Assembly: GCA_904420245.1 (NCBI GenBank)
Contig: CAJFUL010000030.1
Location: forward strand, 1 to 64,000
From: Candidatus Paralachnospira avium
GTDB lineage: Bacteria > Bacillota > Clostridia > Lachnospirales > Lachnospiraceae
DNA: 64,000 nt
Reading direction: 5' to 3'
How positions within the stretch are numbered: the first letter of the stretch is position 1; the number at the start of each line of letters is the position of its first letter. The position numbers were made by a program, and so were the translations under genes. Under the pieces are notes generated by a model. It ran no database searches. It saw nothing but the letters and a program-made list of their open reading frames with translations, and was not told where the DNA came from. Positions 36,268-51,100 of this stretch are shown here, piece by piece.

Positions 36268-37119
36268 TTATTTTACAGTTCTTCTGGCTGCCTCTACCAC
36301 ATGGCCCACCAGCACGGAAGTGGTCACAGCTCCTACGCCGCCGGGCACCGGAGTGATGGCCTCCACCACCGGTTCCACAGCCTGGTACTTCACATCGCCG
36401 CAGAGCTTGCCTTCTTCGTTGACGTTGATGCCGACGTCGATGACGATCTGGCCGGGAGCCACATACGTCTCATCGATGACGCCTGCCCGTCCCGCGGCCA
36501 CCACCAGGATATCCGCCTCTCTGGTGACGGCAGGCATATCCTTGGTCCTGGTATGGCAGACGGTAACGGTGGCGTTCTTCTTGATGAGCATCATGGCCGC
36601 AGGCTTCCCTACCACCAGGCTCCGTCCTACCACCACCGCCTTCTTGCCCGTGCAGTCGATGCCGTAGTGATCCAGGATCTCCATGCAGGCCTGGGGTGTA
36701 CAGGGCGGGAAGCCCTGGTCCGTGCCGGCGAACACGCCCACCATGGATCCGTCGGTGATGCCGTCCACATCCTTTTCCGGCTTCAGCGCCTTGATGACGG
36801 CCTCCTCGTCGATCTGGGAAGGCAGGGGACGGAAGATCAGGACTCCGTGGATCGAAGCGTCCTCATTGACCTTCTGGATGACTTCCATGAGCCCTTCCTG
36901 GCTCACGTCAGCCGGAAGGACGAATTTCTCCACGGCGACTCCCAGCATATCGCACCGCTTTGTGGCGCCCCGTTCATAGGACAGATCATCGGGCCTCTCT
37001 CCCACCCGGACGATGGCAAGAGTGGGGTTGACTCCCTTTTCCTTCAGAGCCGCCGCCTGCGCCTTGATCTTCTCATTGAGGGCCGCGGCAACTTCTTTTC
37101 CCAAAAGCTGTTTTGCCAT
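36268..37119 (-). CDS. folD: methylenetetrahydrofolate dehydrogenase/cyclohydrolase
   Basis: 'ASIHGVLIFRPLPSQIDEEAVI', 'PCTPQACMEILDHYGIDCTGKKAVVVGRSLVVGKPAAMMLI'. Confidence 0.97.
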   Translation of the reverse strand: MAKQLLGKEVAAALNEKIKAQAAALKEKGVNPTLAIVRVGERPDDLSYERGATKRCDMLGVAVEKFVLPADVSQEGLMEVIQKVNEDASIHGVLIFRPLPSQIDEEAVIKALKPEKDVDGITDGSMVGVFAGTDQGFPPCTPQACMEILDHYGIDCTGKKAVVVGRSLVVGKPAAMMLIKKNATVTVCHTRTKDMPAVTREADILVVAAGRAGVIDETYVAPGQIVIDVGINVNEEGKLCGDVKYQAVEPVVEAITPVPGGVGAVTTSVLVGHVVEAARRTVK

Positions 37120-37137
37120 TGAAACTTCCTCCTGTTT

Positions 37138-37767
37138 TTATTTAAGCCTTCCCAGAACGCTCTCAAACACCTGGTCGGCGATCTTCGTATATTTCTCCAG
37201 CATGGCGTCGGCCTTTTGGTTCAGCTCCTCCGCATACTCTCTGTTTTTCATGGATTTCGTATTGATATAGACGTTGAGGCTGGCGCCCTGGAGGGCCGCC
37301 TTGCAGAACACTGCGCCCACGCCGGCGTCGCTGATGGCCAGCGCCGAACCCTTGGCGGCAAACTCCACCAGAAGATCCAGGGCCTCGCAGCACTTTTCCA
37401 TGATCTCCATGGGAACGGAGCAGGCGTCCTTTAAGACGATCTCCATGACTCTCGCCTTTTCCGCCTTCTCCTCCTCGGTCTCCCGGGGCATGCCGTAAGC
37501 TTTGGAAAGGGGCTCAAAGACCTCCGCATCCCGCTCCACCAGGGCCAGGAGCTCCTTCTGGAGCGTGTCCGCCTTGGACTTGAGCTGCCACATCTCCTCC
37601 TCTACGTCCGCATACTTCTTCTTTCCCACAGTCAGGGACCCCACCATGTTTCCCAGGGCCGTTCCCACTGCTCCCACCAGGGCGCTGGCGCCGCCGCCGC
37701 CGGGAACCGGCGCTTTGGATGCCAGGACCTCTACAAACTCATTGCACGGTACTGTTGAAAAACCCAT
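37138..37767 (-). CDS. fchA: cyclodeaminase/cyclohydrolase family protein (methenyl-THF cyclohydrolase)
   Basis: 'PVPGGGGASALVGAVGTALGNMVGSLTVGKKKY'; position next to folD in a WL cluster. Confidence 0.92.
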   Translation of the reverse strand: MGFSTVPCNEFVEVLASKAPVPGGGGASALVGAVGTALGNMVGSLTVGKKKYADVEEEMWQLKSKADTLQKELLALVERDAEVFEPLSKAYGMPRETEEEKAEKARVMEIVLKDACSVPMEIMEKCCEALDLLVEFAAKGSALAISDAGVGAVFCKAALQGASLNVYINTKSMKNREYAEELNQKADAMLEKYTKIADQVFESVLGRLK

Positions 37768-37783
37768 TGCCTTTTACCTCCAT

Positions 37784-38449
37784 TCACTGCGGCTGCCGGG
37801 CCGCGAGCTCGCCGGCCAGCCTCTTCAAGGTTCCGATGGAAATGTCCCCCACTGCCGCCATATCCTCCCCGTGGAAGGCGGAGGCGAAATTGCCGGAGAA
37901 CAGGATCTGGGCGGAAGGCGGGAATTCCTCGTCTCCTTCCCAGATCATAAACTGAAGCTTCAGATCATCCAGGAAGAAAAATTCATACCCGGCGTCTCCC
38001 TGGGGGACCGGAGTCCCTCCCAGAGATTCCATGACCTGCCGGAAAGAATCCAGCTTAAAACCGAACGTATAGGCCAGCCGCTTTACGCAGCGGCCCTGAA
38101 AGACCTGGTTGTAGTGGTTCCCCCAGGGCATATCGGCATAGGCGTAGAAATCTCCCTTGAAAGGAGCCTTCTTTCCCTCCAGCAGATACCGGATCACCAG
38201 GATCTTGGTCTCCAGGTTGTCCAAAAGGGGCGCGTATCCGCCGTCCTCCTCCAGACAATGGGTCTCGAAATCCGGATAATGGACCGTATATCGTTTTCCC
38301 ATCAGCGTCACGGAAAAGAGACCGGTTTTCGCATCGTAGGGAGCGCCGGAAACCTGGGACAAAAGGACGGGATCCGCTTCCCGGAACCGGGCCTTATAGG
38401 TTTCAAAGGGAACTCGTTCTTTTTGATTTTTTTCGTAAGGAATATTCAT
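37784..38449 (-). CDS. DUF3786-like protein
   Basis: 221 aa; 'YVKxx..ETHCLEEDGGYAPLLDNLETKILVIRYLLEGKK...MPWGNHYNQVFQGRCVKRLAYTFG'; family assignment from memory. Confidence 0.7.
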   Translation of the reverse strand: MNIPYEKNQKERVPFETYKARFREADPVLLSQVSGAPYDAKTGLFSVTLMGKRYTVHYPDFETHCLEEDGGYAPLLDNLETKILVIRYLLEGKKAPFKGDFYAYADMPWGNHYNQVFQGRCVKRLAYTFGFKLDSFRQVMESLGGTPVPQGDAGYEFFFLDDLKLQFMIWEGDEEFPPSAQILFSGNFASAFHGEDMAAVGDISIGTLKRLAGELAARQPQ

Positions 38450-38459
38450 ATATCTTGTC

Positions 38460-40397
38460 CTATCTCACTTCTTCCTGGCGGACCGACGGGAACAGGGACG
38501 TATCGGTATGAGGGATAAAGCACGCCGCCACGAACTCATCCATATATCCTGGCGTCGTGGACAGCTCCATATACGTCATGCTCTTGGCCAGCTCATAGAC
38601 CTTGCGTTCCGCTTCGCCGGACAGCAGCATGGCATAGGCGCCGGACAGGGAAGAATTACCGATGTAATGGAACTTTTCCAGCGGAATATCCGGGAGCATA
38701 CCGATCCCCACCGCGTTTTTCATGTTGATGCCGCTTCCGATGCCTCCGGCCACATAGACGTCATCCACCATGGAAACATCGAAATCCAGGGCGGTCAGAA
38801 GCGTCCGGATAGCCGAAAAGATGGCGCCCTTGGCCCGGATGAAGTTGTCGATATCCACTTCCGTGATCTCCACGTCCTTGACAGAGTCCGCCTCTTCCCG
38901 GAACGCCAGCACATAGCTTCCCATACCGTATTTGTCGTGACGGATCCGCTTCCCTTCCCGGATGAATTTCCCCTTGGGACTGATCATATTGCACCGGAAC
39001 AGCTCGCTGATCACATCGATGAGACCGGAACCGCACAGGCCCACCGGCTTCTGACCCTCATCGCCCACCACTTTGAAGGAGGGCTCCATGGTCCCGGCAT
39101 CGATGGTGCATGCTTCTATGGCCCCGTCGGTGGCCCTCATGCCGCAGCTGATGTCGCCGCCCTCGAAGGCAGGGCCGGCCGAGCAGGCGCAGCTCATCAT
39201 AAAATCCGAATTGCCGAAGACGATCTCGCCATTGGTGCCCAGATCGATGAAAATGGAAAATTCCGGCCTGTTCCAGATCATGCTGACCAGGGTGCCGGCT
39301 GTGATGTCGCCGCCCACATAGCTGCCGATATTGGGCGCTACGATGATGTGGGCATCGGGGTTGATGTCGATCCCCAGATCATTGGCAAACAGAGAATTGG
39401 TCTTAAAAAAGACCGGGATATAGGGCTCGGTCCGAAGGGGCTCCGCGTTGAACCCGACAAACAGATGGTTCATGGTGGTGTTGGCCGCCACGCACATCCG
39501 GTAGATCTGGGCAGGCTCCAGGCCGCAGGAAGCGCACATGGTGCGGACCAGGGGATTGATGGTCTCCTCTATGACCGCATCCTGGAGCTTCTTCTGGCCG
39601 CCCTCTTTCCTGGACTCGATGATCCGATTGATGACGTCGGCGCCGTACCGGATCTGCCCGTTTCCGGTGGTGGCCTTGGCCAGGATGTCTCCGTTCAGCA
39701 TATCGATGATCATGGCGGAGACCGTCGTCGTTCCGATGTCCACCACCAGGCCTCCTGCCCTGACATGCTCTTCCATGCCGTAGAGATCATAGACGAACAC
39801 ATCCCGGGAAGAACGCCTCACCACGCACTGGACCTGAAAATCATGCTCCCGCAGCTTGTCGGGAAGGACTTTTAAGACTGTATAGGGGACCCGCACATAG
39901 GGGATCCCGGTGGCCGCCGCCAAAGCCCGCTCCAGCCGTTCCACATCCGGCATGGTATCGTCCAGGGTCGGCGCAGCCATGGATACAGGAATAAGCTCCA
40001 GGCTGTTCTTCAGGGTGATCCCCGCCGCCTGCAGCTGTTCTTTCGTTTCCGTAAAGATCCGGATCTCCTCCGGAGAGCTCAGATCTGCCGCCTTCATCCT
40101 GCCCTTGTACGCGGAAGCGATGTCCGGCACCATCACTTCGATGTCCGACACCACTTTGCTGACGCAGGCGAGACGCCACCCCTCCGCATACTCTTCATCG
40201 GTGATATGACGGGTCTTCTGGGATTCCAGTTCGCCGGACAGAAGCTTTACCCGGCACTTCCCGCAGGCGGCGTTTCCGGAACAAGGGGCGTCGATAGCTA
40301 CGTTTGTTTTTCTCGCTACCTCAAGAAGGTTTTCACCAGAAGCAGCGAAGGCAGTAATGCCCTCGCCGCTCTCAAACTTAAATATGATCTTGTGCAT
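38460..40397 (-). CDS. acsV: corrinoid activation protein (RACo/AcsV, 2Fe-2S + ASKHA ATPase)
   Basis: N-terminal 'CSGNAACGKCRVKLLSG' 2Fe-2S site; 'GLVVDIGTTTVSAMIIDMLNGD'; DUF4445-like C-terminus. Confidence 0.95.
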   Translation of the reverse strand: MHKIIFKFESGEGITAFAASGENLLEVARKTNVAIDAPCSGNAACGKCRVKLLSGELESQKTRHITDEEYAEGWRLACVSKVVSDIEVMVPDIASAYKGRMKAADLSSPEEIRIFTETKEQLQAAGITLKNSLELIPVSMAAPTLDDTMPDVERLERALAAATGIPYVRVPYTVLKVLPDKLREHDFQVQCVVRRSSRDVFVYDLYGMEEHVRAGGLVVDIGTTTVSAMIIDMLNGDILAKATTGNGQIRYGADVINRIIESRKEGGQKKLQDAVIEETINPLVRTMCASCGLEPAQIYRMCVAANTTMNHLFVGFNAEPLRTEPYIPVFFKTNSLFANDLGIDINPDAHIIVAPNIGSYVGGDITAGTLVSMIWNRPEFSIFIDLGTNGEIVFGNSDFMMSCACSAGPAFEGGDISCGMRATDGAIEACTIDAGTMEPSFKVVGDEGQKPVGLCGSGLIDVISELFRCNMISPKGKFIREGKRIRHDKYGMGSYVLAFREEADSVKDVEITEVDIDNFIRAKGAIFSAIRTLLTALDFDVSMVDDVYVAGGIGSGINMKNAVGIGMLPDIPLEKFHYIGNSSLSGAYAMLLSGEAERKVYELAKSMTYMELSTTPGYMDEFVAACFIPHTDTSLFPSVRQEEVR

Positions 40398-40408
40398 GGA
40401 TCCTCGCT

Positions 40409-41194
40409 TTATACTTCCAGGTAAGAATCTGCGTACAGAGTATCGTTGCGGATGATGTCGCAGGACTTGATGGTCTCCATCAGCCTCAGGTCATTGGGGT
40501 TCACGATGGCGGAGGTCATACCCATCATCATAGCCATGGCGATCATGGCAGAGTCCATGATGGGACGGATATGCTTAGGCATACCGTTGGAGTTGTTGGA
40601 AAGGCCGCCGGTGGTCTTAAGACCCATGGCCGTCAGGTCGCCGATGAAGTGGAGCACGTCCATCTGCTTGTCCTGCATACCCTTGATGACGACGAACAGC
40701 GGATCGAACCAGATGTCGTCCTCGGAAAGACCAAGGGAAAGGCCTCTCTCCAGCAGAGTGGTGCAGTAGCCCATACGCTCGTCGTTGTCCGCGGCAATGC
40801 CTTCGCCGTTGCAGAGCGCGATGACGATGGCATCGTTGGCAGCTGCCAGGTCGATGTTCTCGATCCTGCCGGCAGCGTCGGCAGAGTTTACGATGGGTTT
40901 GCCCTTGGAACGGTTATATACGGAGATACCGGCTTCGATGGCCGCCTTATTGGAGGTATCCAGAGCCAGGGGCACGTTGTCGAAGTTGCTCTGAAGGAGC
41001 TGTACGGCCCACTTCATCAGATCTTCGCCGTATCCTTCTGCAGGTCCGATGTTTACATCCAGATAAGTTGCGCCAGCATCCAGCTGAGCCTTTGCGCGGG
41101 CCAGGATGGGTTCAGGATCCCTTGCTAAAAATGCCTTGTTCACAATGGGAGCCGTTGTGGAAAGTCTCTCGCCGATGGTAATGAATTTTGCCAT
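40409..41194 (-). CDS. acsE: methyltetrahydrofolate:corrinoid/iron-sulfur protein methyltransferase
   Basis: 'ATYLDVNIGPAEGYGEDLMKWAVQLLQ', 'KPIVNSADAAGRIEN', 'GGLSNNSNGMP' pterin-binding. Confidence 0.97.
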   Translation of the reverse strand: MAKFITIGERLSTTAPIVNKAFLARDPEPILARAKAQLDAGATYLDVNIGPAEGYGEDLMKWAVQLLQSNFDNVPLALDTSNKAAIEAGISVYNRSKGKPIVNSADAAGRIENIDLAAANDAIVIALCNGEGIAADNDERMGYCTTLLERGLSLGLSEDDIWFDPLFVVIKGMQDKQMDVLHFIGDLTAMGLKTTGGLSNNSNGMPKHIRPIMDSAMIAMAMMMGMTSAIVNPNDLRLMETIKSCDIIRNDTLYADSYLEV

Positions 41195-41227
41195 GTTCGT
41201 TTTTCTCCTTTTCTTGATGGTTATGGA

Positions 41228-42607
41228 TTACGCGTTCTGCATATCCTTTAAGAACTTCACAAGCTGGACAGCCTCGGTGGGGCCTACCACGATGTTCCAT
41301 CCGGGGAGCTTGGACTCCAGATCGCCCTTCAGTACGGCAACCTTGCCGGGGATGATCAGAGTACGGTTCTTGATCTTGTTCTCAATATCGAATTCCTGGA
41401 TATACTTGGCAATGGAACCGGAAGAGAATTTGCCGGCTGCCCAGGAGGTCAGTACGGAAAGTCCGCCCGCGTCGCTGATCAGCAGGTTGCAGGGAACGCC
41501 GGAACGCTCCAGCTCGCCGGATACCAGGAAGTAAGTCAGGGCGAAGTCCACGGTGGTCAGGCACACAGAGTTCTCGTCTGCCCCATTGATGGGATAGATG
41601 CCGGGCTCGATCCTGGGAGCCTTCTGAGGATCTGTGTACAGGTTCTGGCGCAGGCCGTAAAGAGGAAGCGCCATTGCGTAGGTCATCTCCTCCACGATCA
41701 CGACAGAGCCGTATTTCATGGTGAATAAAGCTGCCAGAGCTGCCTGCATATGAGCGTCGCCGGAAGCCAGCTTGCCTACGTTCACAAGGCTGGGATATCC
41801 GAAGGTCCTGTCGCCGTCCTTGAGAGCCGCGCGGCGGATCAGGACGCCGTTGGCGAACGCATCCTTTACGGAAGCGGTGCCCAGATCCAGGATCAGGTTC
41901 TTATTGCCGGCCTTCTCCAGAGCAGCGACCGTATCATAGAGCTCCTCTACGGAAGCGCCGGATACGCCCAGCACAACTCCGGCCTCGGTGGCCAGTTTGT
42001 TCATGGCTTCATAGTTGGAAGCGTCTGCGCCGTTTAAAATGGGCTTCTTGTCCTTGCATACGTCGAGAGCAGCCTTCGCGCACGCCTCATCCTTTACATT
42101 GAGGATCAGGGAACGTCCGGCAGCGTCTGCCTTCTTCACCAGCTCTGCGTATTTCTCGGGAGCAGTTCCTTCCGCGCAGTCCACAGCGATGAATTCCACA
42201 TACATCCTGTCGCCGATACGGTCGTAGTCGACGGCGGATACGGAAGCCAGCCTTGCGTCTACGGCAGCGTCATCCATGCAGGTGCATACGGTGGAAGCAT
42301 ACCTGGTCTTGTTGACAAAGGTCTTCTCATGACGGAACAGAACGGTCTCGCCGCCCAGGCTGTATTCCTTGTCGCTGTCCGTCTTGTTGTCTGCAAAGGG
42401 CTTTACGCCGGCTTTGATGGTCTTCATGGGCGGTGCGGATGCCTCGGACAGGGTCGCAAGGGCTTCCTCACTCATATAAGGACACTGATCGATGGTCATG
42501 GCGCCCTGAGCCACCTTCATGGAAAAAGCCATGCAGGTAGGGCAGCCGCACTCTTTGCAGTTCTTTTTCGGCGTTAATTTAAAAATTGCAATACCATTTA
42601 ATGCCAT
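41228..42607 (-). CDS. acsC: corrinoid iron-sulfur protein large subunit (CFeSP gamma)
   Basis: N-terminal 4Fe-4S 'CKECGCPTCMAFSMKVAQG'; 459 aa. Confidence 0.97.
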   Translation of the reverse strand: MALNGIAIFKLTPKKNCKECGCPTCMAFSMKVAQGAMTIDQCPYMSEEALATLSEASAPPMKTIKAGVKPFADNKTDSDKEYSLGGETVLFRHEKTFVNKTRYASTVCTCMDDAAVDARLASVSAVDYDRIGDRMYVEFIAVDCAEGTAPEKYAELVKKADAAGRSLILNVKDEACAKAALDVCKDKKPILNGADASNYEAMNKLATEAGVVLGVSGASVEELYDTVAALEKAGNKNLILDLGTASVKDAFANGVLIRRAALKDGDRTFGYPSLVNVGKLASGDAHMQAALAALFTMKYGSVVIVEEMTYAMALPLYGLRQNLYTDPQKAPRIEPGIYPINGADENSVCLTTVDFALTYFLVSGELERSGVPCNLLISDAGGLSVLTSWAAGKFSSGSIAKYIQEFDIENKIKNRTLIIPGKVAVLKGDLESKLPGWNIVVGPTEAVQLVKFLKDMQNA

Positions 42608-42628
42608 TGTTTTCTCCTCCTGTTTCTG

Positions 42629-43570
42629 TTAGCTTAAAGCCTGGATCATCTTGGAAACGGTTGCGATGGATGTGGGGTGCTTCAGGATCACTGCGTCAGA
42701 ACCGCAGGTCAGGCAGGCAACAGCAGTTTCCACTTCCATATCGATCCCTCTCTCTTCCACGGGGCCCCATCCGGGAGCATCCTCTTCAGAAGCGCTGGCC
42801 TCTTTTACGGTCCAGGTCTCGGAAGAAATGGGAGTGATCACAGGCATCAGCAGGGAGTCGTCAGCCTGTCCCAGCGCTGCGGCCCTTACACGGTCCATGG
42901 TGGAGATCACATAGTCAAAACCGTAGCCGGCAGCCGCGGAACCTACGTTCATGACGACTTTGCCCAGATCTACGCCCAGCTGCTTGATCAGCACGTTGAG
43001 CTGTTTTGCCAGGTTGATATCCACTGCGGACTCTGCGCCCACCAGCTGGTCATAAGCAAGACCTGCGGCAGCGGCGATATTCTTGTAATCTTCTTCTCTT
43101 GCGGAGAGGAGGAGCACATTCTTTCCCTGAAGGGCTTCCGCAACCTTGGGAAGAAGATCCGCATCCTTCTGCACATTCTTGCAGCCTTCTACTACCAGGG
43201 GAAGGTCAATGGCCTCGGAAACTTCTTTGGCCACAGCCACCAGATCCTCCACCGGCTTGTCAGCGCCGTTGGGATCTCCGCCCTCCAGCTTAAGTACTAC
43301 GAAATCCACTCCCTCAAAGGAAGCAGCTTTCTTCGCGATCTCCGCCACCGTGCTGCAGCCTTCATAGTAAGCTTTGATGCAGTCGGGCTCGCTCTCCAGA
43401 CCCATATCGGAAATTTCGATCCCGATCTTGGCCGGATTGGCTGTAGGGCCGTCAAAGGTATAGAAGGGGAACGTATTTCCACCTCCGAGTTTTACGGTCT
43501 TGTCTCCTGTTCCCAGTTCGACCGTGCGGATTGTCGCGTTGAATTTCTGTAATTTCTTTGTAAACGGCAT
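42629..43570 (-). CDS. acsD: corrinoid iron-sulfur protein small subunit (CFeSP delta)
   Basis: 313 aa; 'TVKLGGGNTFPFYTFDGPTANPAKIGIEISDM'. Confidence 0.97.
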   Translation of the reverse strand: MPFTKKLQKFNATIRTVELGTGDKTVKLGGGNTFPFYTFDGPTANPAKIGIEISDMGLESEPDCIKAYYEGCSTVAEIAKKAASFEGVDFVVLKLEGGDPNGADKPVEDLVAVAKEVSEAIDLPLVVEGCKNVQKDADLLPKVAEALQGKNVLLLSAREEDYKNIAAAAGLAYDQLVGAESAVDINLAKQLNVLIKQLGVDLGKVVMNVGSAAAGYGFDYVISTMDRVRAAALGQADDSLLMPVITPISSETWTVKEASASEEDAPGWGPVEERGIDMEVETAVACLTCGSDAVILKHPTSIATVSKMIQALS

Positions 43571-43620
43571 TTCCTGCTCGCCTCCTTAAATATTTTGCTG
43601 TAGTTTATAACAGCACAGTC

Positions 43621-43838
43621 CGGGAATCCCCGTCCCGGGGACTCCCGCCGCGCTGTGAGATACCAGATCATATTGGAAAACCCTGTTTCGCGGCCTTTCC
43701 AAGAATATACTCAGGATCCCCGCTTTCAAAGGTGCGTTCCGCACCGCGCCGCTTTCGCGGCGGCGGGGCTCCTTCGTTAAAGCCTCGCGGCAGCCAAATG
43801 TCCGCTCCGCGGCCGCTTGGCTGCCTTTCCGAGGCTTT
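43621..43838 (-). repeat. multi-hairpin intercistronic region between acsB and acsD
   Basis: Four inverted repeats: 43621-43647, 43731-43745, 43747-43762, and 43779-43797/43817-43838 overlapping the acsB stop codon. Confidence 0.8.
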
Positions 43839-45966
43839 ACATCATCGGATCCATGGCGAGGGCCGGATGTCCCTTCTCCGTCAGGAATGCCAGTAAGGTC
43901 TCGGGATCTTCCGCAATGGTCTCATCGCCGATCATATCGGTGAAGTTGTCAATGCCGTAGAGCTCCTTGGCTGTGGCGTTGAGTCTCTCTGCCACCTGCT
44001 CCTTCAGATCCTTGGGCATCCACACGATTCTCTCGATGCCGCCCTCAGCCTTCATGAACTTCTTGGAAGCGATGAAGTGTTTGCCGTGTCCCATGAAGCC
44101 GGGGGTCTGCACGCCGCCGCCGGTCATGGAAGCCAGCTCGGGGAAGGTCATGCCCAGAGGGGTCATGCCGGCATACTCACGGTTGGCGATGATCACGCCG
44201 TTGGAGAAGGGCTCGATGCCGCAGATACACTCAAAGCATCCGCAGGAGGTCATGGGCTTCTCCATAATGGAGTACAGGGATACTTCTTCCAGAGCGCCGT
44301 TGGAGAATCTGCGGACAGCCTCGTTGACATCCTCGTACTCGCCGATCCTGTCGTCGATCAGCTTCTCTTTCGTGATCACCTGGCAGGGACCTGTGGGCTC
44401 CAGCTCGTTGGTAGCCTTGGCATCCAGCCATGAAACGGCGCCGCAGAGGCCGAGACGCTCAGGAGTTACCACGCATACATGGCTGGGCGAGAAGGCCTGG
44501 CACATGATGCAGCTGTAGTATACGTCTACAGACTCATCCGTCAGGGATTTCAGTCTGTCGTCACGCTTGTCAAAGGCAGGGATCGCCAGCTCATGACGCA
44601 GCTTGGTGACCAGCTCGGGATCCGTGATGACCTTCACCTGGCACTTGTCCACAACGGCATCGAAATCGTTCTTGATCTTTGCGTAGAGGACTTCACCGAT
44701 GTGTCTTGCGCGGAAGCCTGCCTCATAAGCCGCATCGCTGATACGGACGCGGATCATGTCGCGCTGTCCGGTGTGCATAACGCCTTCGATGCAGTTCATA
44801 TAGCTGTGGAACTTACGCTCGAACACGGACTCGAAGTCGGACTGCATGCTCTTTCCTGCCACTTCCACGATATAAGCGATGCTGTGCTTGCTGCCCTTCT
44901 CAAACTCATCGAAGTCAGGGCCGATCAGCTCGATCTTATGGTCCTCGATCTCGGAAGCCTCCTTGGTCTGCACCAGCTCGAAGCAATCCACTCTGGAGCC
45001 GTCGAACTCCACCTGCATCTGCTTGCGGCGGACGATCTCGCCCTCGAAAGCGGAAGCGAAAGCAACGGGGATATCGATCTTGGTGATCTTGATCTTGATA
45101 TCGCGGGCCTCCAGGGAGGTGGCGTTGAACTTAGAAACATCTTCCTGAACGATGAGGCTCTTGGGCACGCGGAAGATATTCTCAGTCTCGTTGGTGATGA
45201 CCGGGAAGCCCAGAGCGATGGCGCCTGCGCCGCAGGCCACGATCACGTCATCCAGAGGAGCGAAGGCGTTGACGAAGGCCGGCACACGCTCCATGGTGTA
45301 CTTCATGAGGCCGGCTGCATCGCCGGGGGTCACGTTGCCGAAGATCAGGGCCGCGCGGACTGCCACGGAAACCACATGGATCACGGAAGTCACGTCCTTG
45401 CCCAGAGGGATCACACGGACGCCTGCGCCCATGTTCACGCCCTTTTCCACACACTGATCGATGACGTCGCCCACCAGGGTCACTAAGATGCCCTGTGCCT
45501 GATAGCTCTTTACCAGGTCAGCTGCTTCGTCGGCTGTGGGAGCCTTGCCCAGAATCACGGCTACGCCGGGGATGTCGCCGGTTACCAGCGGAACGCCCAG
45601 CTCACGGATCACGGCGTCGGCCAGATGGCCGTAGCAGGGCTCGCTGTAGGGCTCCGCGCCGTCGATATATTTCAGGACCTCGATGAATTCTGCGCAGAGA
45701 GCCGTCGCAATGCCGGACATAAAGGCGTCGTTGAGCTTCTGCTCTCTGGTCATCAGGCTCTTTACTACGCCCAGGGCTTCCTTCAGCTCTGCCAGGCTGG
45801 TGACCTTCGTACCGGTCACGCCGTAATAGCAGGGCAGGCTGTAAGCCGTATTGGGAAATGCAACTGCCTTATCCGCACCGTACTGTTCGATGGCATTGTT
45901 GATGGCCCCTTCTGTCAGGCCAAACACTGCGTCAGAACCACTGAATACTCTGTCAAATAGTGTCAC
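43837..45966 (-). CDS. acsB: CO-methylating acetyl-CoA synthase
   Basis: 709 aa; A-cluster Cys motifs 'SCIMCQAFSPSHVCVVTPERLGLCG' and 'CGCFECICGIEPF'. Confidence 0.98.
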   Translation of the reverse strand: MTLFDRVFSGSDAVFGLTEGAINNAIEQYGADKAVAFPNTAYSLPCYYGVTGTKVTSLAELKEALGVVKSLMTREQKLNDAFMSGIATALCAEFIEVLKYIDGAEPYSEPCYGHLADAVIRELGVPLVTGDIPGVAVILGKAPTADEAADLVKSYQAQGILVTLVGDVIDQCVEKGVNMGAGVRVIPLGKDVTSVIHVVSVAVRAALIFGNVTPGDAAGLMKYTMERVPAFVNAFAPLDDVIVACGAGAIALGFPVITNETENIFRVPKSLIVQEDVSKFNATSLEARDIKIKITKIDIPVAFASAFEGEIVRRKQMQVEFDGSRVDCFELVQTKEASEIEDHKIELIGPDFDEFEKGSKHSIAYIVEVAGKSMQSDFESVFERKFHSYMNCIEGVMHTGQRDMIRVRISDAAYEAGFRARHIGEVLYAKIKNDFDAVVDKCQVKVITDPELVTKLRHELAIPAFDKRDDRLKSLTDESVDVYYSCIMCQAFSPSHVCVVTPERLGLCGAVSWLDAKATNELEPTGPCQVITKEKLIDDRIGEYEDVNEAVRRFSNGALEEVSLYSIMEKPMTSCGCFECICGIEPFSNGVIIANREYAGMTPLGMTFPELASMTGGGVQTPGFMGHGKHFIASKKFMKAEGGIERIVWMPKDLKEQVAERLNATAKELYGIDNFTDMIGDETIAEDPETLLAFLTEKGHPALAMDPMM

Positions 45967-45977
45967 TGTTCTACCTC

Positions 45978-46751
45978 CTACCGATTTGATTCCTCATCAA
46001 TTTTTTCCTTGATCGCCCGTATCTCCGCCTTGGCCGTCTCACTGAAATCGAAGGGAGACTTTCCAAGACGGTCGGCATCTATGACTTCTGAATTGTAATG
46101 GATAAAACCCAGAAGATCCTCCCGGGGGATCCGGCTTTTCACAAATTCCTCGTCCTCTTCCCCGCGGACCTTGTTGGCCACGACCCGGACCTGCTTCACT
46201 CCCAGGTCCTTGGCCAGGCGCTTGACATTTTTATAGGTCTGGACGCTCCTGGCGCCCGGTTCGATGACCACGATGAACTGGTCCATCCCGGAGGTGGTGC
46301 CCCGGCCTAGATGCTCCAGGCCAGCTTCCATATCCAGGATCACCACATCGTCGCTGCGCAGCACCAGATGATTGATGATCCGCTTCAGGATCACATGCTC
46401 CGGGCAGACGCAGCCGCTTCCGCCGGTCTCCACGGTGCCGAGGGTCAGAAGGCGCACCCCGTTGCAGGTCTTTGCATACAGGTCCGGGATGTCATCTACC
46501 TTGGGATTCATCCGGAAGAACTGTCCCATGGCATCGGCACCGGTCCTCTCCTGGATCAGCTTCTGCATCTTGGAGATGGGGACGATGGAGTCCAGCTCTT
46601 CCTCCGAAAACCCAAGGGCCAGCCCCAGGTTCGCGTCCGGATCCACATCGGCCGCCAGTACATGTTTCCCCTCTTCCGCATAAAGCCTTGCCAGGGTGGC
46701 CGCGAAAGTGGTCTTTCCCACGCCGCCCTTTCCTGTCACTGCGATCTTCAT
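45978..46751 (-). CDS. CooC/AcsF-type nickel-insertion ATPase, paralog 2
   Basis: 'TGKGGVGKTTFAATLARLYAEEG', CxC 'GSGCVCPEHVIL', 'DMEAGLEHLGRGT'. Confidence 0.93.
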   Translation of the reverse strand: MKIAVTGKGGVGKTTFAATLARLYAEEGKHVLAADVDPDANLGLALGFSEEELDSIVPISKMQKLIQERTGADAMGQFFRMNPKVDDIPDLYAKTCNGVRLLTLGTVETGGSGCVCPEHVILKRIINHLVLRSDDVVILDMEAGLEHLGRGTTSGMDQFIVVIEPGARSVQTYKNVKRLAKDLGVKQVRVVANKVRGEEDEEFVKSRIPREDLLGFIHYNSEVIDADRLGKSPFDFSETAKAEIRAIKEKIDEESNR

Positions 46752-46787: not shown

Positions 46788-48680
46788 TTAAATGCCGAGA
46801 GCAGCCCTCTTTTCTTCAATTCTCGCGATCATGGCATCGCCCAGTTTATCAATATCCTTCTCAACGGTATAAGCCGCTTCTACCCAGTCGCGGATCCCGT
46901 TTGTCAGGAGCTCTGCCACCTCAGTGGAACCGGATACATAGGGATCTACGCCCAGGAATGTATCGATACCGGTGGCTACCACATAGTTTCCGATGGATAC
47001 AGCCTTTTCAGACATCCACTCAGGAGCGCAGCCCACTACCGGCAGCGCGGAGATGGGAAGGCCGGAATCCTTGGAAAGGGTGGCTGCCAGCACCATCATA
47101 CGGCTGATGTCCACGCAGGAACCCATATGTAATACGGGAGGGATGTCTGCCAGTTCGCAGACTCTCTTCAGGCCGGCGCCGCACAGATCCTTGGCTTCCT
47201 TGGACATGAGTCCTGCCCTGGCAGCTGCCTGAGCGGAGCAGCCGGAAGCGATGATCACGATATCGTTGGCGATCAGCTTCTTCATCAGCTCCACATGCGC
47301 GTAGTCGGGACGTACCTTGGGGTTGTTGCAGCCTACCATGGCCACAGCGCCGCGGATAACACCGGAGGTGATGCACTCCAGCAGAGGCTTCGTCGTTCCG
47401 GTCTCGTCCACCTGGGAATTGGTCACGCCGTCCAGAGTCTTGACAATGGCCTCAACGGAGTAGCCTACCGTAGCCTTCTGCTTCATATCCGGAATGTATA
47501 CCAGATCCTGTCTTCTGTTGACGAAGTTCTCGCAGGCAGCCTTTACGATGGCCTTTGCGTTCTCCCCTGCGTTCTCCGCATGGAATTCGATGAACTCGGA
47601 ATCCGGCATCTGAGCGATGGGGGAGGTGGTGATGAACTTGGTGTGGAAGCACTTGCTGAGAGGCCCAAGAGCCGGGAAGATACACTGTACGTCCACAACG
47701 ATGGCCTCGCAGGCGCCGGTCAGGACCACGTTCTCCTGCTGGAGGAAGTTGCCTGCCATGGGGATCCCGCGGCGCATAGCCACTTCGTTGGAAGTACAGC
47801 AGACGCCGGACACCGTGATGCCTTTTGCGCCGAAGGACTTGGCGTACGCGATCATCTCCGGATCATCGGCATACTCGCAGATCATCTCGGACAGGCTGGG
47901 ATCATGGCCGTGTACCACGATATTGACGTTCTCAGCGTTCATAACGCCCAGGTTTGCTTCTGTATCGATGGGCTTGGGAGTTCCGAACAGGACGTCGGAG
48001 AACTCGGTCCCGCACATGGAGCCGCCCCAGCCGTCTGCCAGGCCTGCCCGCAGAGACTGGCGGATCAGAGCCTCCGGCTTGGAGGAACATCCCATATGGG
48101 TCATATGCAGGGAACAGGAAACTTCACGGTCGATGGCACGGGGAGCGATCTTCTCTCTCTCCCAGATCTCCTGGGTGTGCTCAGGCGCTCTCTTTAACCA
48201 TCTCTGGTTGCCGAAGGGCTTGCCGTACTCAAGGAGAGCCAGCTCTGCCATCTCATGGGCCAGATCATAGATGTCCTTGCCCTCGGTCTCTACACCCCAC
48301 TCCTTGGCGATCCTCTTTAACTTGTCAGGATCCTTTACCTTGTAGTTTCCATCCTCAGCGGACAGATACAGGGTGTGGCAGATCTCACGGCCGTGGTCGG
48401 AATGGGTAGCCGCGCCGCCGGCAGTGAATTTCAGGTAGTTACGTCCTACGATGCCGTGAACATCGCAGCCGCAGATGCCTCTGGGCGCCTTGGGGGTGAT
48501 CCGGCAGGGACCCATGGAGCAGATCCGGCAGCAGACACCCTGCTCACCGAATTTGCAGTGAGGGGTCTGGTTCTTCACCCGCAGCTGCCAGGAATCTGCA
48601 CCAACCTTTGCTCCTGTCTCCAGAAGTTTGGCGGTAGCCGCCTCGAACTCCTCAATACTTGTCAACTTAAAGTCTCCCAT
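46788..48680 (-). CDS. cooS: anaerobic carbon monoxide dehydrogenase catalytic subunit
   Basis: 630 aa; 'CKFGEQGVCCRICSMGPCRI...GICGCD' B/D-cluster; C-cluster motifs 'GHDP', 'DVQCIFP', 'GCNNPK', 'SGCSAQ', 'MGSCVD'. Confidence 0.98.
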   Translation of the reverse strand: MGDFKLTSIEEFEAATAKLLETGAKVGADSWQLRVKNQTPHCKFGEQGVCCRICSMGPCRITPKAPRGICGCDVHGIVGRNYLKFTAGGAATHSDHGREICHTLYLSAEDGNYKVKDPDKLKRIAKEWGVETEGKDIYDLAHEMAELALLEYGKPFGNQRWLKRAPEHTQEIWEREKIAPRAIDREVSCSLHMTHMGCSSKPEALIRQSLRAGLADGWGGSMCGTEFSDVLFGTPKPIDTEANLGVMNAENVNIVVHGHDPSLSEMICEYADDPEMIAYAKSFGAKGITVSGVCCTSNEVAMRRGIPMAGNFLQQENVVLTGACEAIVVDVQCIFPALGPLSKCFHTKFITTSPIAQMPDSEFIEFHAENAGENAKAIVKAACENFVNRRQDLVYIPDMKQKATVGYSVEAIVKTLDGVTNSQVDETGTTKPLLECITSGVIRGAVAMVGCNNPKVRPDYAHVELMKKLIANDIVIIASGCSAQAAARAGLMSKEAKDLCGAGLKRVCELADIPPVLHMGSCVDISRMMVLAATLSKDSGLPISALPVVGCAPEWMSEKAVSIGNYVVATGIDTFLGVDPYVSGSTEVAELLTNGIRDWVEAAYTVEKDIDKLGDAMIARIEEKRAALGI

Positions 48681-48703: not shown

Positions 48704-49501
48704 TCATTGAGATTTTAATAATTTTTCTACTGCATCGATCAGGGCCCGGCGTACCGGGGAATCCTTCGGAAGCTTCAGGGAAGTGGGTTCCCCTTCGCAG
48801 TCCATCTCATAAACATCTTCGCTGTGGGGGACCACGCCGATCAGCTCAAGTCCCTGATTGCGGATCTCTTCCTGCACTCCTTCATTGAGCTCTCCGCCCG
48901 GAGCGCGGTTTACGATGAGGCCCATCACCTTGGGATTCAGCTTGCACTCCCGCACCAGCTCCGCGATGCGGCCCACGGCTTGGATCCCTCTCCTGGAACA
49001 GTCGCTGACCAGGATCATGGCGTCCACATGGGGCAGGATGCCCCGGCTGATGTGCTCCATCCCGGCTTCGTTGTCCACCACCACATACCGGTACTGGCTG
49101 GACAGCTTCGCCACCTGGGCAGATAAAAGCCCGTTGACATAACAATAGCAGCCGGACCCCTGGGTGCGTCCCATCACCAGAAGATCATAATCATCCTCTT
49201 CTGTCAGCGCAGAATTAAAACGGAACGACGCATAATCCTGCTTGGACACTCCGGCGGGGATCGGACTGGGATTCATCATCTCCGCCCGTTCCAGCTCCTC
49301 CCGGATCTGTCCCAGCGTCACCTCCACGTCCACTCCCAGCACTTCGTTGAGATTGGAATTGGCGTCGGCATCGACGGCCAGGACAGGACCCTCGTCCTTT
49401 TCACACAGATATTGGATCAGCAGGCCGCAGAGGGTAGTCTTCCCCACTCCGCCTTTGCCCGCGACCGCAATGGTATAGGCCATTGAACAGCCCTCCTTCA
49501 T
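48704..49501 (-). CDS. CooC/AcsF-type nickel-insertion ATPase, paralog 1
   Basis: 'AGKGGVGKTTLCGLLIQYL', CxC 'GSGCYCYVNGLL', 'DNEAGMEHISRGI'. Confidence 0.93.
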   Translation of the reverse strand: MKEGCSMAYTIAVAGKGGVGKTTLCGLLIQYLCEKDEGPVLAVDADANSNLNEVLGVDVEVTLGQIREELERAEMMNPSPIPAGVSKQDYASFRFNSALTEEDDYDLLVMGRTQGSGCYCYVNGLLSAQVAKLSSQYRYVVVDNEAGMEHISRGILPHVDAMILVSDCSRRGIQAVGRIAELVRECKLNPKVMGLIVNRAPGGELNEGVQEEIRNQGLELIGVVPHSEDVYEMDCEGEPTSLKLPKDSPVRRALIDAVEKLLKSQ

Positions 49502-49519: not shown

Positions 49520-50449
49520 TCAGACCCTTGTCCGCATACCGGACCGGCCGATGATCTCAGACACATCCTTCCATTTGTTCAGCGCATACAGATGGATGCC
49601 GCCTATCCCCAGAGTACGGTACGTATCGATCTGCCGGATCGTGTACTCCATGCCTTCCTCCCGGAAACGGGCCTTCTTATCCTCCGCCTCCGCATCGGAA
49701 GGATCGGAGACAAACGGATTGGGGAAGATCCAGTTCCTGGATATGATCCTGCAAAGATCACGATCCATGACGCAGCCGTTTCTGGACAGGGCCATATTGA
49801 TGGTGGCCGCCTGATCCAGGATCGGCATGACGCCCACATCCACCGGCATGGTGATGCCGGCTCTGCGGATGGCGTCCAGCCACCTCTTGAACTGCTCCAT
49901 ATCCCAGCAGAGCTGGGTCATGATATAATCGGCGCCGTTGTCCTGCTTCTGCTTCAGGACCGCGATGTCCGCCTCCAGGCTCCTGCACTGGATATGTCCC
50001 TCGGGAGAACCGGCCACGGCGATCTCGAACCGGCTGCCGAATTCCCTGCGGACAAAGGCCACCAGGTCCGACGCGTAGGAAAAATCGCCTCCGGTGCCTG
50101 TCCAGCCATGGGGCAGATCGCCCCGCAGGGCCAGCATATGGTCCACGCCCTGATCCAGATAGCTCCGGAGCTGCTCCCGGATCTCCTCTCGGGTGTTCCC
50201 GATGCAGGTAAAATGCGTAACCGGCACAGTCCCCGCATCCAGGACCATCCTGCACACATCCATATTCCTGCCTGCATTGGTCCCGCCTGCTCCGTAAGTG
50301 ATGGAGAAATAATCCGGACGGAACTCACAGAGATGTCCGATGGTATCGCGGAGATTCTCCATGCCCTTGTCTGTCTTGGGCGGAAACAGTTCAAAGGAGA
50401 AGGTCATCCTCTCCTTCATGATTTCTGTCAGTCTCTCAGCTATAGTCAT
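49520..50449 (-). CDS. metF: methylenetetrahydrofolate reductase
   Basis: 'MTFSFELFPPKTDKGMENLRDTI', 'YFSITYGAGGTNAGR', 'ALRGDLPHGW'. Confidence 0.96.
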   Translation of the reverse strand: MTIAERLTEIMKERMTFSFELFPPKTDKGMENLRDTIGHLCEFRPDYFSITYGAGGTNAGRNMDVCRMVLDAGTVPVTHFTCIGNTREEIREQLRSYLDQGVDHMLALRGDLPHGWTGTGGDFSYASDLVAFVRREFGSRFEIAVAGSPEGHIQCRSLEADIAVLKQKQDNGADYIMTQLCWDMEQFKRWLDAIRRAGITMPVDVGVMPILDQAATINMALSRNGCVMDRDLCRIISRNWIFPNPFVSDPSDAEAEDKKARFREEGMEYTIRQIDTYRTLGIGGIHLYALNKWKDVSEIIGRSGMRTRV

Positions 50450-50482: not shown

Positions 50483-50677
50483 TCAGTCGGTGCAGCGGAT
50501 CTTTACGATGCTGTTTGCCAGGTCCACTTCCGTCAGGGCGCCTGTCACTTTCATCTCCTGGCCAATGATGTCATACATGGTGATCTGATCGCCGTCAATG
50601 AGGATCTTGCTGACGTTCTTAAGCAAAAGCGTCTCGTCCTCTTCCGGCTTTTTTCCATAAACTGCCGCAAGGCACAT
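50483..50677 (-). CDS. cooT: CooT-like small nickel-binding protein
   Basis: Likely start MCLAAVYGKKPEEDETLLLKNVSKILIDGDQITMYDIIGQEMKVTGALTEVDLANSIVKI; Met-Cys N-terminus characteristic of CooT family. Confidence 0.85.
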   Translation of the reverse strand: MCLAAVYGKKPEEDETLLLKNVSKILIDGDQITMYDIIGQEMKVTGALTEVDLANSIVKIRCTD

Positions 50678-50705
50678 CGCTGTCACCTCCCGTCTGCCTT
50701 TATGA

Positions 50706-51011
50706 TCAGTCCTTCAACAGAGAAAGCGCAACACTCAAGCGGACATTTCCGCTCTCAAAATCAGAAACCGCCTTATCGATCTGATCCGCAGCTTCCGTCT
50801 TTCCCATCTCGCGGAGCTTCTTTCCCATCTCTGCCAGCTCTGCCGCATGATGCTTATTATGGTCCACCATATAGGAAACAAGAGCAACCGTTTCCTTCTC
50901 CGCATCCACGCATCCGCCGCAGGAACCACAGGATCCTTCGTGGCAGTCTCCATGGGTATGGGAATGGCCGTGCTGGATCACGTTTCCATTTTCGTCTGTG
51001 ATTACATGCAT
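50706..51011 (-). CDS. His/Cys-rich small protein, putative metal (Ni?) chaperone
   Basis: 'HGHSHTHGDCHEGSCGSCGGC' near N-terminus followed by a helical region; first gene of the CODH/ACS operon. Confidence 0.8.
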   Translation of the reverse strand: MHVITDENGNVIQHGHSHTHGDCHEGSCGSCGGCVDAEKETVALVSYMVDHNKHHAAELAEMGKKLREMGKTEAADQIDKAVSDFESGNVRLSVALSLLKD

Positions 51012-51071: not shown

Positions 51072-51100
51072 ATTATACTCTGGTTGGTCATATTAATCAA
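51072..51100 (-). promoter_or_regulatory. sigma-A-like promoter of the Wood-Ljungdahl operon
   Basis: Minus strand TTGATT-N17-TATAAT, about 60 nt upstream of the first gene. Confidence 0.75.

Follow-up and report, generated by a model that had tools for sequence, protein, structure and literature searches.

The route by which nickel reaches the C-cluster of CO dehydrogenase (CODH) and the A-cluster of acetyl-CoA synthase (ACS) is a long-standing question, and the closest described system is CooJ of R. rubrum, whose coo operon is not known to carry ACS or Wood-Ljungdahl genes. CooJ and its homologues reportedly share an H(W/F)X2HX3H motif, said to have been described by Alfano and colleagues in 2019. 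R. rubrum CooJ carries 16 C-terminal His and binds about four Ni, CooT binds Ni with a Kd of 9 nM, Cys2 being its reported nickel ligand, and cooC, cooT or cooJ mutants need added Ni for growth on CO (PMC6006190).

Two other records bear on genes of this kind. In the available part of its text, a survey of CODHs ('Investigating the native functions of [NiFe]-CODH', eLife 2026) reports 68 hand-picked 'potential CooJ' genes beside CooT, and places CooJ/CooT within clade E, in two parts of it; with a single exception, these are tied to one-carbon metabolism (PMC13056359). In C. autoethanogenum, according to the available part of the article, deletion of a gene called hp (LABRINI_07945 / CAETHG_1604) cuts the growth rate on syngas by 37% in rich medium and raises the acetate yield more than five-fold, without any difference in minimal medium; nickel rescue does not appear in this part of the study, and no link of hp to CooJ is drawn by the authors there (PMC10230548).

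The window, i.e., the whole stretch of 64,000 nucleotides that was analysed, contains at 51011→50706, on the minus strand, an ORF encoding a 101-aa protein with the layout MHVITDENGNVIQ-HGHSHTHGDCHEGSCGSCGGC-VDAEKETVALVSYMVDHNKHHAAELAEMGKKLREMGKTEAADQIDKAVSDFESGNVRLSVALSLLKD; a previous sequence-only reading had located this gene without giving its strand. The features of the locus are as follows:

50706..51011, minus strand: CooJ-like protein of 101 aa (leader, residues 1-13; His/Cys-rich tail, residues 14-34; helical hairpin, residues 37-100)
50910..50972, minus strand: His/Cys-rich stretch HGHSHTHGDCHEGSCGSCGGC, residues 14-34, predicted to be disordered (composition and model pLDDT)
50838..50873, minus strand: conserved core motif Y47-M-x2-H51-N-x-H54-H55-A-x-E58 in helix 1, a putative remodelled CooJ metal site (invariant columns)
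51072..51100, minus strand: sigma-70-like promoter match TTGATT-17-TATAAT (10/12 positions)
50483..50686, minus strand: CooT (Pfam PF10133, E 2.6e-15)
49520..50449, minus strand: MetF-type methylenetetrahydrofolate reductase (Pfam PF02219, E 4e-63)
48704..49501, minus strand: CooC-type ATPase (Pfam CbiA, E 1.9e-18; position)
46788..48680, minus strand: CooS, Ni-CO dehydrogenase (Pfam PF03063, E 1.7e-169)
45978..46751, minus strand: second CooC-type ATPase, an AcsF candidate adjoining acsB (sequence and position)
43837..45966, minus strand: AcsB, acetyl-CoA synthase (PF03598, E 1.8e-66)
36268..43570, minus strand: remaining Wood-Ljungdahl cluster, AcsD, AcsC, AcsE, AcsV, DUF3786-like, FchA and FolD (by sequence, not all HMM-tested)

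In this gut-type acetogen, the CooJ-like gene is the first of 14 co-directional genes and lies 19 bp upstream of cooT, in the order CooJ-like, CooT, MetF, CooC, CooS, CooC/AcsF, AcsB, AcsD, AcsC, AcsE, AcsV, DUF3786-like, FchA and FolD (CooT, MetF, the first CooC and CooS being named by Pfam, and the other operon genes by sequence and order). Only part of the CooJ-like family has a MetF gene at this position. CooT likely starts at the third codon after the annotated GTG, which gives MCLAAVYG with Cys2. The gaps in the run measure 10-36 bp, except for one of 266 bp between acsB and acsD (window 43571-43836); this sole long gap of the operon may contain a processing site, attenuator or internal promoter. 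As a separate observation, homologues of the DUF3786-like protein (window 37784-38449, minus strand) recur at nearly all the CODH/ACS and CooT loci examined. The sequence-only reading had described the gene as the first one after the operon promoter, preceding CooT. The gene order holds, and a ribosome-binding site (AAAGGAG) stands ahead of the gene, but the promoter is only suggestive, since promoter-like sites occur in the region at near chance frequency (3, versus a mean of 1.5 in shuffled sequences).

The same reading had counted 5 His and 4 Cys in 21 residues, and this count is confirmed: at the operon's own His/Cys frequencies its probability is about 2.5e-8, and no other 21-residue stretch is richer in His and Cys among the window ORFs of at least 100 aa. 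The metal-rich stretch is not, however, the start of the protein as had been claimed, a 13-residue leader, MHVITDENGNVIQ, coming first and the stretch occupying residues 14-34. The helical-looking tail that had been proposed is borne out by an AlphaFold2 monomer model, computed from 34 family members, which predicts helices at residues 37-68 and 72-100 with a pLDDT of 96-99, and disorder at residues 15-33 (pLDDT <50). This helical part contains a second, conserved His cluster, H51, H54 and H55, which had gone unmentioned and because of which the protein has 9 His in total. In 34 diverse members, A43, Y47, M48, H51, N52, H54, H55, A56, E58, L59, N89, L92, A95 and L96 are invariant. Because H51, H54, H55 and E58 follow an i, i+3, i+4, i+7 spacing, they come to lie on one face of helix 1, and a face made of three His and one Glu may bind metal.

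When the protein was searched against Pfam and NCBIfam, no family scored above cut-off, and it does not match the CooT family PF10133. DinB and NADH_4Fe-4S domains gave weak matches, below cut-off and absent from the rest of the family, and were rejected, as were the Foldseek matches of two hairpin models, which are just generic helical hairpins (rubrerythrin, ESCRT-III), none below an E-value of 0.001. Two paralogues with a CooJ-like domain (L145:12968-13378, plus strand; L146:129-446, minus strand) have lost the whole His motif (YKQNQVIALKL) and keep a Cys-rich N-terminus.

The relation of the helical domain to CooJ was traced through intermediates. In a CooT-anchored search of 292 Clostridia genomes, small proteins beside CooT and AcsB in other Clostridia were found to carry the exact H(W/F)X2HX3H motif (e.g., HWVAHNQDH, HWAAHNQDH, HWIEHNKSH), to be often N-terminally His-rich and to match the CooJ-like family profile. 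A joint alignment places their H-W-x2-H-N-x-D-H over Y47-M48-x2-H51-N52-x-H54-H55, and the three motif His never vary among 17 diverse relatives that bear the motif. The window family and the CooJ-motif proteins align in hhalign with a probability of 98.0 (E 2.7e-13), and in another run of 98.5 (E 2e-15). A profile made of CooJ-motif proteins alone (A6), from which all window-family members were excluded, retrieves the window gene from its genome with an E-value of 1.1e-11. Some CooJ-motif relatives beside CooT are without any His tail (L172, L191-L193, L217, L221), and where a His/Cys stretch exists in relatives with the exact CooJ motif, it is also found N-terminally. Two weak relatives (E ~1e-5; L225:1444-1716 and L226:1426-1710, both minus strand) carry their His tail at the C-terminus, like R. 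rubrum CooJ; they adjoin, by eye, an apparent HypE.

When profiles including CooJ-motif proteins were used to search the PDB (177,635 sequences), R. rubrum CooJ (6HK5) was found at rank 1 (E 0.035), rank 3 (E 0.04) and rank 2 (E 0.019), with E-values that are individually marginal, each match placing HFLDHVEGH exactly over YMVDHNKHH. As this register is exact, the operon partners are shared and 6HK5 was a prior hypothesis, the helical domain is very likely homologous to R. rubrum CooJ, judging from these sequence comparisons. Used without CooJ-motif proteins, the window protein or its own family retrieved no relative from the PDB, and a direct hhalign of the window family with the CooJ chain is weak (probability 4), so that the link to CooJ rests on the intermediates. 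6HK5 is absent from the best 50 matches in the structure comparison of the hairpin models; a helical hairpin is undiagnostic. A plasmid search for a canonical coo operon yielded CooS of Acetoanaerobium and Ruminococcus only, and no source of CooJ; a designed repeat protein, one top PDB match of the profile A8 (E 1.6e-6), was discarded as a low-information helical match.

Among 118 distinct domains, 89 combine Tyr at position 1 of the core motif with His at i+7, and another 16 have a His at position 1 but lack one at i+7; two have both His and 11 neither; with further loci, these numbers become 90, 29, 3 and 9, respectively. The domains with both His (L138, L139, L221) look like intermediates, as far as their sequences can tell. 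A tree of 82 domains, weakly resolved with its 64 columns, requires a minimum of 3 changes in the His/Tyr state of position 1 and of 9 in that of i+7, and part of the exclusivity reflects shared ancestry. Projected on a helical wheel, i+7 falls within ~20 degrees of position 1, which would have allowed a ligand to shift by two turns on the same face. This ligand shift is the most specific structural prediction of our analysis and is directly testable for the metal site.

Homologues occur in all 10 other genomes sampled from the genus, as well as in other genera, which indicates a real, selected gene. A scan of named GTDB genomes found 281 relatives, of which 80 were kept. CooT is immediately downstream in 79 of these 80, the gap to it having a median below 20 bp and being mostly below 60 bp, and CooS is at most 4 kb away in 61 of the 64 relatives whose downstream sequence exceeds 3.5 kb. 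The sequence-only reading had named, as the main argument that could be raised against its proposal, a family that occurs mainly where CODH/ACS is absent; this is not what was observed. Among 348 genomes of the same family (Lachnospiraceae), the gene is present in 43 of the 44 AcsB-positive genomes and in 10 of the 304 AcsB-negative ones, AcsB being thus found in 43 of 53 carriers (Fisher p 4e-44, a statistic that ignores phylogeny). The single AcsB genome without the gene (G371) is an 87%-complete draft, and in one carrier counted as AcsB-negative (G248), CooS adjoins the gene and AcsB is lost to the contig end. The CooJ-like gene is a genuine, near-universal companion of CODH/ACS in Lachnospiraceae: a recognisable and deletable gene heads the CODH/ACS operon in almost every genome of this family that has the enzyme. 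A search for other nickel systems, limited to NiFe hydrogenase and HypA, gave no match above cut-off in the genome of the window or in four congeners, which leaves CODH/ACS as the evident nickel client in these genomes.

All the context tests that were run support the candidate role in nickel delivery or storage for CODH/ACS that had been put forward from the sequence, and this role is well supported by context. In its favour also stand the nickel-type transporters beside copies away from CODH (L099, L136, L208 and L150), the nickel need of R. rubrum cooJ and cooT mutants, and the slower growth of the hp mutant on syngas in rich medium. We consider that this CooJ-like protein is probably a nickel chaperone and buffer which, in Lachnospiraceae, is dedicated to CODH/ACS. 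Its disordered N-terminal part, the His/Cys-rich tail, would load and buffer several Ni(II), as suggested by its composition, the homology to CooJ and the nature of its partners. The helical hairpin would pair with a second copy, by analogy with R. rubrum CooJ, and the face of helix 1 that bears H51, H54, H55 and also E58 could then provide a defined nickel site where the two copies meet, or close by. From the content of the operon, nickel may next be handed, probably by way of CooT and the operon's two CooC-type ATPases, to a recipient that would be the C-cluster of CooS, the A-cluster of AcsB or both.

Three other explanations were weighed against this one. According to the first, which we regard as unlikely, the protein would be only a nickel store or detoxifying buffer, in the manner of Hpn-like proteins, without any delivery to CODH/ACS. 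As would be expected of a sink, the N-terminal part varies widely in 80 relatives, from 35 to 111 residues and from 7 to 41 His (median 18), with 0-8 Cys (median 4); 75 of the 80 start with MH[LVIM]. Copies located away from CODH, second copies among them, also fit the buffering of incoming metal, as three of them adjoin nik-like ABC transporters (L099, NF045468 E 2e-84; L136, E 2e-104; L208, E 2e-42), whose binding proteins have nickel families as their best match, below the curated equivalog cut-offs; in L136, the CooJ-like gene directly follows the second transporter ATPase. However, the helical domain is far better conserved than the tail, with invariant Y47, M48, H51, N52, H54, H55, A56, E58 and N89, and this conservation, together with the above-mentioned tail-less relatives beside CooT, argues for a specific function of the domain.

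The second explanation, that cobalt (for the corrinoid protein AcsCD or cobalamin) or zinc is handled rather than nickel, appears still less probable. The Cys-rich end of the tail would equally fit zinc or another soft metal, 59 of the 80 tails contain a CxxC, and one copy (L150) has a CbiM-type ECF transporter upstream, an annotation which does not separate Co from Ni. Nickel is nevertheless favoured, as the fixed partner CooT is a Ni protein with a conserved Cys2, copies adjoin the nik-like systems, others stand with CooC and CooT in genomes without CODH/ACS, and CxxC is not universal. At two further copies (L216, L218), apparent CbiM/NikN-like genes are seen by eye directly upstream. Nickel-pincer LarA-type racemases are encoded within a few kb of two others (L069, L133), a distance which makes this link weak. 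Separately, a conserved ~140-aa protein, 'MxIAVVDGQGGGIGxxIxxKLR', adjoins CooT at many loci (L204:8933-9355, plus strand; L153, L154, L157, L168, L214-L220), frequently separating CooT from the CooJ-type gene or from an ECF ATPase; it looks like DUF3842 and is a possible further nickel/cobalt handling factor.

Some copies are close to AcsB itself. In the taxonomic family of one genome (G592), a motif-bearing homologue is immediately beside AcsB, and in a Eubacteria-type genome a CooJ-motif frame runs stop-free into a full AcsB (L202:9697-12618, minus strand; 973 aa, the AcsB part being over cut-off). First read as a domain fusion, this junction was downgraded: a strong ribosome-binding site is kept 5-6 bases before the AcsB start and the sister genomes have separate genes, and it could be a fusion, coupled translation, or a lost stop or assembly error. 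For these two reasons it is counted as a close AcsB association and not as a proven fusion. The third explanation, that the protein is a structural or regulatory CODH/ACS subunit (e.g., a metal-responsive switch) whose tail is incidental, could draw on this frame and on the first place of the gene in the operon, but it is very improbable, as copies occur without CODH/ACS and the junction may correspond to two proteins or to an assembly error.

These copies without CODH/ACS point to nickel enzymes yet to be found. In the other nine AcsB-negative carriers, the CooJ-like gene is within, or at most ~15 kb from, a cluster (present only in part in G342) that encodes a CooC-type ATPase, two 2-hydroxyglutaryl-CoA-dehydratase-family proteins (PF06050), one of them double-cubane-like, a BadF-type activase (PF01869), and a protein of ~240 aa that scores above the cut-off of PF03598, the ACS beta domain (middle domain). 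A prismane/CODH-family protein is absent from seven of these nine carriers, and two have one. The ~240-aa protein is found in 22 of 295 genomes of the family, only one of which has AcsB, and at two loci (L246, L247) a true HypA is nearby in place of CooJ/CooT. Such repeated association with nickel chaperones of different kinds suggests a nickel enzyme that has yet to be described. The cluster was seen at L132, L133, L134, L138, L139, L141, L142 and partly L140, and also at L246-L251.

Acetogenic Lachnospiraceae with CODH activity and without canonical CODH/ACS genes are on record (PMC7000372). One speculative possibility, which we hold to be rather unlikely as a whole, joins these observations: the protein would belong to a mobile nickel-delivery module and not be a CODH-only factor; its third core ligand would have moved from the first motif His to i+7; and, in Lachnospiraceae lacking CODH/ACS, it would serve an undescribed nickel enzyme made of a double-cubane-type, 2-hydroxyacyl-CoA-dehydratase-like pair, an ASKHA activase, a CooC-type ATPase and an ACS-middle-domain homologue. 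The cluster would then be a candidate for the missing CODH/ACS of these acetogens (PMC7000372).

Finally, the locus can be compared with the systems already described. The position of the gene and a likely relative are already on record. The hp gene of C. autoethanogenum, an organism of a different family, similarly encodes a His-rich hypothetical protein adjoining cooT at the Wood-Ljungdahl cluster (PMC10230548); it is probably an orthologue of the CooJ-like gene. The 'potential CooJ' genes of clade E likewise adjoin CooS and CooT in one-carbon operons, and the 68 listed genes probably include some window-family members already; the available text of the survey differs from the present analysis in containing no sequence, motif or architecture analysis (PMC13056359). 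In the literature searched, no earlier description was found of the reversed tail, of the altered motif or of the bridge to CooJ, and three threads are thereby joined, i.e., the biochemistry of R. rubrum CooJ, the unexplained hp phenotype and the unnamed 'potential CooJ' genes of clade E. With HypB, SlyD and Hpn/Hpn-like proteins, the window protein has in common a His-rich, low-complexity segment; it differs from HypB and SlyD in having no GTPase, FKBP or other Pfam domain, its helical hairpin being unrelated in sequence.

The closest comparison remains that with R. rubrum CooJ. Both proteins have the helical domain in register, with H51 and H55 retained as the second and third His of the motif, a flexible extension rich in His, and CooT, CooC and CooS as operon partners. 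The window protein differs by Tyr47 in place of the first motif His and Met48 in place of W/F, by an extra His54, invariant in the subfamily, and a conserved Glu58, and by a His/Cys-rich tail that is N-terminal whereas that of CooJ is C-terminal; its operon also carries ACS and Wood-Ljungdahl genes. The sequence-only reading had considered the architecture to be unlike that of CooJ, which stands for the order of the domains, reversed here, but not for the helical domain, whose homology to CooJ-motif proteins (the 98.5 hhalign probability) makes the protein a remodelled relative of CooJ rather than an unrelated one. As it departs from two defining features, the strict motif and the C-terminal tail, we do not file it as a canonical CooJ; from its sequence, it is best explained as a CooJ-like variant with a reversed tail and a remodelled core site.
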